Part shown: positions 22,815-34,683 of the stretch, piece after piece
Numbering within the stretch: the stretch's first letter is position 1
Layout of the letters: each line of letters begins with the position of its first letter
Source of the DNA: Flavobacteriaceae bacterium
GTDB lineage: Bacteria; Bacteroidota; Bacteroidia; Flavobacteriales; Flavobacteriaceae
Direction of reading: 5' to 3'
NCBI GenBank assembly: GCA_017852075.1
Contig: JAFMLQ010000001.1
Location: 1-64,000, forward strand
DNA: 64,000 nt
Position numbers and translations under genes: made by a program
Notes under the pieces: model-generated
Databases searched by the model: none
The model's input: the letters and a program-made list of their open reading frames with translations, nothing else
Told to the model about the DNA's origin: nothing

Positions 22815-22823
22815 AGAAAAAAA

Positions 22824-23112
22824 GCAGGCCTATAAGCCGGATTCTGTCGTGTCTTATCATTTATCTGGATGTAAAATTACTCTTACATTCTAGCCGCCTA
22901 CCCTTCTACATCGAACGAGCTGCTCTCAAATTGTAGAACTACTTGGCGTTGCACCGCATAGAGTTTACCTGATTTCACTACAGCCGAACTGTACTTGCTT
23001 TCTGTTGCACTGGTCCGCTCCGCCGAAACGGAGGACGGGTGTTACCCGCTATGCTGCTCTGTGGTGTCCGGACTTTCCTCTCCTGTAAAACAGGAGCGAT
23101 AAGATGGCCTGC
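22824..23112 (-). ncRNA. rnpB: RNase P RNA (bacterial type A)
   Basis: Read on the minus strand, the conserved 5' core GAGGAAAGTCCGGACACC and the AGAGCAGCATAGCGGGTAAC region are present. The 3' conserved GACAGAATCCGGCTTATAGG is also there. The ends pair as P1 (GCAGGCC at 23106-23112 with GGCCTGC at 22824-22830), and hairpins CTCCTG-TTTTA-CAGGAG and CTCCG-TTTC-GGCGGAG match P3 and P12. The RNA is the catalytic subunit that trims the 5' leader of tRNA precursors. A T-rich tract follows the 3' end as a likely terminator. Exact ends are good to a few bases. Confidence 0.96.
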
Positions 23113-23116
23113 AGGT

Positions 23117-32486: not shown

Positions 32487-34544
32487 TTATTCATCCTCTT
32501 CCATCCTATCTTTTAAATTTGCCAAGGCGTCCAAATCTCCAAGGGTCGCTTTTTCCGAATTGGAAGAAGCCACTTTTGCAGCAGCACGTTTGACATTCTT
32601 CATTTCCTGTTCTTTGAACAATACGGTATGAGAAGCCACAACACGTTTGAATTCTTTGTTGAATTCGATGATCTTGAAAGTCGCTTCTTCTCCTTTAGAA
32701 AGTTTTGAGCCGTCTTCTTTTTCCATATGGCGAGAAGGTACAAAAGCAACAATATCCTCATTGAATTGGATCGTAGCTCCTTTGTCCACAACTTCCGTTA
32801 TAGATGCTTTATGCTCTGTATCTAAAGCAAACTCTTTTTCGTACTTGTCCCATGGATTGTCTTTGGTGTGTTTATGACCTAAACTCAACTTACGGCCTTC
32901 CACGTCCAATTCGAGAACAATCACATCGATCTTATCACCAAGGGTTAAAACTTCCGAAGGATGCTTTACCTTTTTAGTCCAAGATAAGTCTGAAATATAA
33001 ACCAACCCATCAATTCCTTCTTCCAACTCAATAAATACTCCAAAGTTGGTGAAATTTCTTACCAGTCCGTTGTGTTTAGAGCCAATTGGATATTTGGAAG
33101 TGATGTCCGTCCATGGATCAGGAGTAATTTGCTTAATTCCAAGAGACATTTTACGTGACTCACGGTCTAGAGTTAAAATTACTGCTTCTACTTCATCTCC
33201 TACGTTTACAAAATCTTGCGCTGAACGTAAATGGGTGGACCATGACATCTCAGATACATGAACCAGTCCTTCTACACCTTCTTCGATTTCAACAAAAGCA
33301 CCATAATCTGCAATAACAACTACTTTTCCTTTGACGCGGTCACCCTCTTTTAATTCGTCAGACAACTGATCCCAAGGATGGGCACTCAATTGCTTCAATC
33401 CTAATTGGATTCTAGATTTGTTGTCATCAAAGTCGAGAATTACAACATTCAATTTTTGATCCAATTCTAGAATTTCGCTAGGGTGGTTGATTCTACTCCA
33501 CGATAGATCCGTGATATGAACCAAACCATCTACTCCACCAAGATCGATAAATACTCCGTAGGAGGTAATGTTTTTAACGATCCCTTCGAGTACTTGACCT
33601 TTTTCCAGTTGACCAATAATTTCTTTTTTCTGTTCTTCGATATCTGCCTCGATCAAAGCTTTATGAGACACTACCACGTTTTTAAATTCGTGGTTGATTT
33701 TGACCACTTTAAACTCCATGGTCTTGTTTACATATTGATCGTAATCTCTGATAGGTTTTACATCAATTTGAGAACCTGGTAAAAACGCCTCGATTCCAAA
33801 TACATCGACAATCATTCCACCTTTTGTTCTGCATTTTACAAAACCGCTTACAATTTCAGAATTATCGTGTGCATTATTTACACGATCCCATGCTTTTATC
33901 ACACGAGCTTTACGGTGAGAAAGTACAAGTTGACCTGTTCGGTCTTCACGGGTATCAACAATTACCTCTACTTTATCCCCTACTTTTAAATCAGGGTTGT
34001 AACGGAATTCGTTTAGTGAAATTACACCTTCAGACTTGGCGTTGATATCAATGATTGCTTCCCGTTCTGTCATATAGACTACAGTACCTTCAATCACGTC
34101 TTCATCAGAAGTGTCAACAAAATTTTCTTTGACGAGCTTTTCAAATTCATCGAGTTGCTTGTCATCAATCACATCAATACCTTCTTCGTAATTGTGCCAA
34201 TTGAAACTATCTAAAAATTCTGCTTGTGCTTTCTGTGTGTCTTCTTTGATTTCATTTTTATCTTCAACCACAGCTACATCTACAGTAGTATCTGCTACAG
34301 GAGGAGTTTCTACAACTTCTTCATTGTTCACTTCAGGAGTCTCTGCTTTAGGCTCTTTTTTTGGAGCTTCTTTTTTAGCAGTGACTTTTGAAACTGGCTT
34401 TTTAGCCGCAGTTGTTGCAGTTGTTTTTTTGGTGGTTGTTTTGGTTGTTTTCTTTGCTGCAACTTTAGTAGTTGTTTTCTTTGCTGCAGTTTTTTTTGGC
34501 GCTTCTTTTTCTTCAGCTGCCTTTTCGGTTGGTTCTTTAGCCAT
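32487..34544 (-). CDS. rpsA: 30S ribosomal protein S1 with basic N-terminal extension
   Basis: S1 binds mRNA on the small ribosomal subunit; Bacteroidota rarely use Shine-Dalgarno pairing. The 685-residue protein has six S1 repeats from about residue 140; repeats 3-5 are the strongest (GVDGLVHITDLSW, GVEGLVHVSEMSW, GIDGLVYISDLSW). Before them lies a low-complexity stretch of about 75 residues rich in Lys, Ala and Thr (AAKKTTTKVAAKKTTKTTTK), then an acidic segment leading to FNWHNYEEGIDV, where related S1 proteins normally begin to align. The extension resembles histone H1-like tails. The start is an ATG with a long structured leader. Confidence 0.95.
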   Translation of the reverse strand: MAKEPTEKAAEEKEAPKKTAAKKTTTKVAAKKTTKTTTKKTTATTAAKKPVSKVTAKKEAPKKEPKAETPEVNNEEVVETPPVADTTVDVAVVEDKNEIKEDTQKAQAEFLDSFNWHNYEEGIDVIDDKQLDEFEKLVKENFVDTSDEDVIEGTVVYMTEREAIIDINAKSEGVISLNEFRYNPDLKVGDKVEVIVDTREDRTGQLVLSHRKARVIKAWDRVNNAHDNSEIVSGFVKCRTKGGMIVDVFGIEAFLPGSQIDVKPIRDYDQYVNKTMEFKVVKINHEFKNVVVSHKALIEADIEEQKKEIIGQLEKGQVLEGIVKNITSYGVFIDLGGVDGLVHITDLSWSRINHPSEILELDQKLNVVILDFDDNKSRIQLGLKQLSAHPWDQLSDELKEGDRVKGKVVVIADYGAFVEIEEGVEGLVHVSEMSWSTHLRSAQDFVNVGDEVEAVILTLDRESRKMSLGIKQITPDPWTDITSKYPIGSKHNGLVRNFTNFGVFIELEEGIDGLVYISDLSWTKKVKHPSEVLTLGDKIDVIVLELDVEGRKLSLGHKHTKDNPWDKYEKEFALDTEHKASITEVVDKGATIQFNEDIVAFVPSRHMEKEDGSKLSKGEEATFKIIEFNKEFKRVVASHTVLFKEQEMKNVKRAAAKVASSNSEKATLGDLDALANLKDRMEEDE

Positions 34545-34649
34545 TTCCGAGGGGGGTTTTGTATTCTGCCGTTGGGAAAACCTTCATTGCAAAGGCAGAA
34601 GCTGTTGTTTTAAATTTGTGCTTTCGGATTTTTCCTATCAATTAAAAGC
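34545..34649 (-). promoter_or_regulatory. rpsA mRNA leader with hairpin, possible autoregulatory site
   Basis: The promoter at 34653-34683 predicts a leader of roughly 105 nt. It contains a hairpin with stem TTCTGCC (34594-34600 on the minus strand) pairing with GGCAGAA (34564-34570), enclosing 23 bases, about 20 bases before the start codon; a C6 run lies between hairpin and ATG. S1 represses its own translation in E. coli, so an autoregulatory role is possible but inferred. Confidence 0.45.
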
Positions 34650-34652
34650 GTG

Positions 34653-34683
34653 CAAATATAATGCTAATGTCCTGAGATACAAA
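34653..34683 (-). promoter_or_regulatory. Promoter of rpsA (TTTG-N19-TATATTTG)
   Basis: On the minus strand TTTG (34680-34683) is followed after exactly 19 bases by TATATTTG (34653-34660). Both elements and the spacing match the Bacteroidota consensus. This is one of the two best promoters in the window. Confidence 0.82.

Follow-up and report, generated by a model that had tools for sequence, protein, structure and literature searches.

A predicted pseudoknotted leader kept upstream of rpsA in Flavobacteriales and other Bacteroidia: a candidate element for feedback by ribosomal protein S1

The window analysed here, a stretch of 64,000 nucleotides from the genome of a member of the Flavobacteriaceae (contig JAFMLQ010000001.1), carries on its minus strand the gene rpsA, encoding ribosomal protein bS1, together with a promoter and a leader whose features are collected in Table 1. 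The promoter is of the flavobacterial/Bacteroidota type, with a spacer of 19 nt between TTTG and TATATTTG, the latter being represented by the variant TAAATTTG in one of the 30 congeners compared. Under the spacing rule by which transcription starts 4–5 nt downstream of the −7 element (PMC6847099), the first nucleotide of the mRNA is predicted at about position 34648, giving a leader of about 104–105 nt up to the ATG at 34544. Published leader lengths have a mean of 33 nt in Flavobacterium johnsoniae (PMC6847099) and, in a transcriptome study of F. psychrophilum, a mean of 65 nt and a median of 24 nt (PMC9723704). Both the promoter and a leader of about 105 nt had been proposed in a first-pass annotation made from the letters of the window, and both agree with the minus-strand sequence, the promoter also with the congeners (Table 1). 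Scanning for promoters and terminators revealed nothing terminator-like on the coding strand of the leader, for which reason transcription attenuation was set aside and any control is taken to act on translation.

Four helices are predicted in the leader. Their strands run 5′ to 3′ as a b c a′ d b′ c′ d′, where a–a′ is P1, b–b′ is PKa, c–c′ is PKb and d–d′ is P2, followed by the motif UACAAA. The 5′ strand of P1 coincides with the predicted 5′ end of the mRNA, with the conserved promoter lying upstream of it, and P2 ends 19 nt before the ATG. PKa and PKb connect the loop of P1 with the loop of P2, and their pairings cross each other in an H-type-like manner and also cross P1 and P2; in the predicted four-helix fold all helices may coexist, or they may alternate. 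The 7-bp hairpin TTCTGCC/GGCAGAA that the first-pass annotation had placed some 20 bases from the start codon corresponds to P2, and as a spaced inverted repeat it is found at a single place in the window, while 100 shuffles produced none; that description was right as far as it went, P1, PKa, PKb and UACAAA having been missed. Folded alone, the leader of the window is not unusually stable (z −0.54), and because single-sequence folding was so unremarkable, relatives had to be compared. The strands of P1 (CUCCUUUU / AAAAGGA in many relatives; 34649–34620 in the window) resemble anti-Shine-Dalgarno and Shine-Dalgarno sequences.

Table 1. Features of the rpsA locus, in order of transcription (positions are those of the window).
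Feature	Position	Strand	Basis
−33 promoter element TTTG	34680..34683	minus	sequence; TTG/TTTG kept in 28/30 congeners
−7 promoter element TATATTTG, TAnnTTTG type	34653..34660	minus	sequence; present in 30/30 congeners
P1 5′ strand GCTTTT	34644..34649	minus	arm-swap z −7.2, 0/5000 permutations; pair counts
PKa 5′ strand ATTG (loop-loop)	34639..34642	minus	swap z −7.4, 0/10000, 54 genera
PKb 5′ strand GGAAAA (loop-loop)	34630..34635	minus	swap z −14.9, 0/10000
P1 3′ strand GAAAGC	34620..34625	minus	as for P1 5′ strand
P2 5′ strand TTCTGCC	34594..34600	minus	arm-swap z −10.6, 0/5000; double changes in 7/8 alignment pairs
PKa 3′ strand CAAT (loop-loop)	34586..34589	minus	as for PKa 5′ strand
PKb 3′ strand TTTTCC (loop-loop)	34575..34580	minus	as for PKb 5′ strand
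P2 3′ strand GGCAGAA	34564..34570	minus	as for P2 5′ strand
UACAAA motif, directly after P2	34558..34563	minus	−19 to −14; ATACAA columns invariant in alignment A1
C6 run	34551..34556	minus	not conserved
rpsA (ribosomal protein bS1)	32487..34544	minus	685 aa, six S1-domain matches

Swap tests, in which the partners of a helix are exchanged between species and the duplex is re-optimised for each swapped pair, were chosen because loop lengths in the leader are too variable for a good alignment. Across 54 genera, the native arms of P1 and P2 and the loop-to-loop pairing as a whole (z −8.2) were matched by none of 5000 permutations, and the signal persisted when the loop helices were split into PKa and PKb (Table 1); the excess of native pairing was absent from the mismatched combinations b5–c3 and c5–b3. 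PKb also holds inside the genus of the window (z −3.8), and a compensatory example is the replacement of GGAAAA/TTTTCC by GGAGCA/TGCTCC in the leader of one relative (L013); PKa is not resolved inside the genus by the swap test, probably for lack of variation there. With one sequence for each of 30 families of the class, the swap z was about −6 (0/20000 permutations), and the 15 non-Flavobacteriales families alone gave −5.4. Pairs of P2 switch from UA to CG and from CG to UA across Flavobacteriales. Compensatory changes in the stem, on which the first-pass annotation had staked its proposal beforehand, were found in number when 65 sequences were aligned without regard to structure, P1 and P2 together showing 139 double-change cells against 55 ± 6 in shuffled alignments; the covariation score was 0.497, against 0.267 ± 0.013 for shuffled alignments and no more than 0.253 for slid ones, and sliding the alignment lowered the P1+P2 signal to about half or less. 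Pair counts were also taken in two subgroups. In the main group they back P1, PKa and P2, a register shift of one base obscuring PKb; in a Flavobacterium-rich group they back PKb, and P2 is uninformative because the search pattern had set it in advance. A tree-aware, R-scape-like test of all pairs on structure-blind alignments yielded no pair at E < 0.05, the best relevant one being in PKb of the Flavobacterium-rich group (E 0.2), and had low power because loop length and register vary from genus to genus; reliance was placed instead on the swap tests, which need no alignment. The swap tests and pair counts show that the predicted structure has been kept by compensatory change in Flavobacteriales and many other Bacteroidia.

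The leader structure is specific to rpsA. A covariance model of P1 and P2 (R1) has its sole significant match in the genome of the window at the rpsA leader (E 5.7e-7); the next matches (E 0.06 and 0.2) appear fortuitous, and the former lies inside a citrate-synthase-like gene. Among 247 genomes of the class, all 12 matches at E 0.01 lie just upstream of rpsA, and among 198 genomes of the order 115 matches pass, with 112 of the 113 that could be assessed standing just upstream of rpsA on the same strand. The single assessable exception (G109:C1:70380-70464, E 0.0086) comes from family f6, in which the rpsA leaders L102 and L103 are without the UACAA layout. A 20-base pattern of P2 was also searched in GTDB genomes, where the matches listed (80) stem mostly from Flavobacterium, Winogradskyella, Aquimarina, Psychroflexus, Myroides and similar Flavobacteriaceae, a range that would also suggest this family for the window; three of these lie too near a contig end, and of the 77 with enough flanking DNA 70 precede an S1 gene, the seven unrelated loci being close to the handful expected by chance. 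The combination of compensatory changes with specificity for rpsA supports a cis-acting regulatory leader.

The distribution of the element was followed by searching S1 in 120 related genomes, which gave 110 upstream regions for inspection, 108 with enough upstream sequence. A strict pattern, which called for the promoter and then a leader with UACAA at its end, matched 96 of these 108 testable rpsA leaders of Flavobacteriales, and five further leaders (L019, L037, L076, L097 and L111) were recognised by eye. Reduced genomes of 0.3–0.6 Mb are among those lacking the pattern; the members of family f16 in this size range (L114–L117) show no UACAA layout upstream of rpsA, and L114 may retain a degenerate P2. 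In non-Flavobacteriales families of the class, the promoter-to-UACAA layout was present at 27 of 60 further loci and was missing or unrecognised by the pattern search at the other 33. With L170, which looks spurious, set aside, 26 loci in 15 non-Flavobacteriales families carry the P2–UACAA form, most of them with perfect pairing of 5–8 bp between the P2 loop and a stretch upstream of P2; in families f36 and f34 and in part of f42, P2 and UACAAA are present but the pseudoknot is slight or absent. As the element is absent or unrecognised in over half of these loci and in reduced genomes, S1 control, if general, would have other forms.

The distance from UACAA to the AUG is 10–16 nt in 80 of 94 leaders. 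The invariance of UACAA in alignment A1 is partly a product of selection, because the search pattern by which leaders were chosen demanded it. In F. johnsoniae, adenines at −12 and −13 promote initiation, and domain 4 of bS1 has been suggested to contact the mRNA from −12 to −15 (PMC6847099), a stretch which the 3′ end of the UACAAA of the window reaches; this proximity is, besides the gene association, what chiefly would point to S1. Six leaders (L045, L048, L049, L065, L067 and L079) have a gap of 35–63 nt between UACAA and AUG, and several of the insertions are hairpin-like, such that folding might restore the usual spacing. The sequence preceding the AUG of the window is ACCCCCCTCGGAA and is devoid of an extended Shine-Dalgarno sequence; nor was an AGGAGG-like stretch seen directly before the AUG in the relatives’ leaders inspected. 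The run of six cytosines that the first-pass annotation had remarked upon before the ATG does exist, but it is not conserved, the longest run of C there ranging from 0 to 6 in 30 congeners and reaching 6 in only two. A weak start-codon context gave no useful signal, the background of 44 window genes being uninformative. A frame of 16 codons (34588–34538, minus strand) begins at an AUG in the P2 loop, and its stop overlaps the rpsA start; as a leader AUG is found in only 9 of 30 congeners, this frame is probably incidental and was rejected as an upstream regulatory frame.

From these observations, a role of the leader in feedback of S1 on its own synthesis appears the best reading, and we would put its probability at roughly 0.58. 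S1 is proposed as the ligand because rpsA is the associated ribosomal-protein gene and because S1 is known to control its own mRNA in gamma-proteobacteria, where it acts as a repressor (reviewed in 2024; PMC10931766). The rpsA RNA would fold from about its first nucleotide into the P1 and P2 hairpins, the loops of which would pair through one or two helices (PKa and PKb) to give a compact pseudoknot adjoining an exposed UACAAA some 14 nt upstream of the AUG. Ribosome-bound S1 would rely on the UACAAA region for initiation independent of a Shine-Dalgarno sequence. Free S1 in surplus would bind the pseudoknot and/or UACAAA and, by blocking or trapping the 30S subunit, would lower the synthesis of S1. 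The start codon lies outside the predicted structure and is not enclosed by it, so that repression is not obvious from the fold. A broader proposal, held more tentatively and at somewhat less than even odds, is that of a pseudoknotted S1 operator across much of Bacteroidia, in which one element would be both an S1-dependent landing site for ribosomes and an S1 sensor; on the same tentative footing, it would represent an S1-responsive leader outside gamma-proteobacteria, placed beside the −12 to −19 region of bS1 recruitment.

Other explanations bear on different parts of this evidence. A chance inverted repeat in an AT-rich leader, with no conserved RNA structure, would sit well with the ordinary stability of the single-sequence fold (z −0.54), but it is contradicted by the swap tests, the pair counts and the rpsA-specific model matches; we consider it refuted, with a negligible probability. 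Conserved structure and association with rpsA would fit equally well a regulatory leader that senses something other than free S1, such as another ribosomal protein or partner (uS2, for example), S1-lacking ribosomes or growth state. There are precedents for such indirect sensing, as bS21 of F. johnsoniae is sensed via bS21-lacking ribosomes (PMC9976891) and in multi-gene operons the first gene frequently does not encode the ligand of the leader (PMC7247131). Nevertheless, rpsA is the ribosomal-protein gene consistently found downstream, and UACAAA extends into the stretch where bS1 is proposed to contact the mRNA, which makes sensing of another signal rather unlikely.

It might also be supposed that the leader works constitutively and without feedback, the 5′ hairpin and pseudoknot shielding the mRNA from decay and UACAAA serving as an S1-dependent enhancer of translation for a highly expressed gene. 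The start of P1 does fall near the +1 given by the spacing rule (PMC6847099), the position of UACAAA would suit an enhancer, and ribosomal-protein genes are highly expressed in all F. psychrophilum samples (PMC9723704). A stabilising hairpin, however, needs no specific, long-kept and long-range loop–loop pairing, and pseudoknots of this kind would usually be expected in leaders that bind a protein or ligand, so that a purely constitutive role seems rather improbable.

The leader has no gathering match in Rfam 15, and a loose Rfam search gave matches at chance level only (threshold E ≤ 10 for the leader of the window with its surroundings, E ≤ 1 for nine relatives). In the 2020 survey of ribosomal-protein leaders by Eckert and Weinberg, motifs for L13, S4, S15 and S16 are reported in Bacteroidia/Flavobacteria, and Table 1 of that survey has none upstream of rpsA (PMC7247131); like those leaders, the present one is lineage-specific and was found by covariation upstream of a ribosomal-protein gene. 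The F. psychrophilum transcriptome yielded 64 structured 5′ regions, for several of which genes are named, and the main text does not name rpsA among them (PMC9723704). No earlier description of an rpsA leader of this kind was found in the open-access literature, and subscription journals or supplements may hold one. From sequence comparison and this survey of the literature, we judge the element to be a new ribosomal-protein leader.

With rpsA of E. coli and other gamma-proteobacteria the leader shares the gene, the place and a structured leader without a canonical Shine-Dalgarno sequence, and also, conditionally here, the proposed competition between free and 30S-bound S1. The E. coli region has a specific fold, AU-rich single strands and a weak Shine-Dalgarno sequence (PMC10931766), whereas the leader described here has loop–loop pseudoknot helices and UACAAA in hosts that do without Shine-Dalgarno pairing, the two being set apart by comparison with the published description. 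The suggestion of the first-pass annotation that this might be a Bacteroidota counterpart of the E. coli system is thus supported for a cis-acting regulatory rpsA leader, through covariation and specificity for rpsA, with S1 as its proposed regulator; the predicted fold, a pseudoknot, is unlike the one described for E. coli. The bS21/rpsU system of F. johnsoniae likewise involves feedback of a ribosomal protein on initiation in flavobacteria independent of Shine-Dalgarno pairing, a feedback that here would be by analogy; it differs in that an extended Shine-Dalgarno sequence is read by bS21-lacking ribosomes, whereas the rpsA leader has no such sequence before the AUG. Flavo-1 RNA (RF01705) is also a structured RNA of Flavobacteriaceae that sometimes lies in 5′ regions, but it has no match in the window or in the relatives tested. 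Pseudoknots are known in the mRNA leaders of rpsO (E. coli and mycobacteria) and of alpha-proteobacterial rpsB; these involve other genes and other architectures, and the likeness is one of principle only.

Bacteroidota ribosomes hide their anti-Shine-Dalgarno sequence. The leader bears on the question of how start sites are chosen in these bacteria, including the reading by bS1 of an A-rich stretch upstream of the AUG. The single-stranded motif that varies least in the leader falls on that stretch, which would make the leader a natural RNA for studies of bS1 binding, initiation and feedback, and reporters and purified bS1 exist for F. johnsoniae (PMC9976891). It would also give Rfam a large RNA family not yet represented there. 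The N-terminus of bS1 in the genus of the window (34544–34290, minus strand) forms a long low-complexity tail rich in Ala, Lys and Thr, with AKKTT-like repeats and variable length; a similar tail is present in a different family (L111), and such tails could be an extra nucleic-acid-binding arm. Elsewhere in the window, an RNase P class A RNA gene (RF00010) is found at 22817–23115 on the minus strand with a score of 200 bits.
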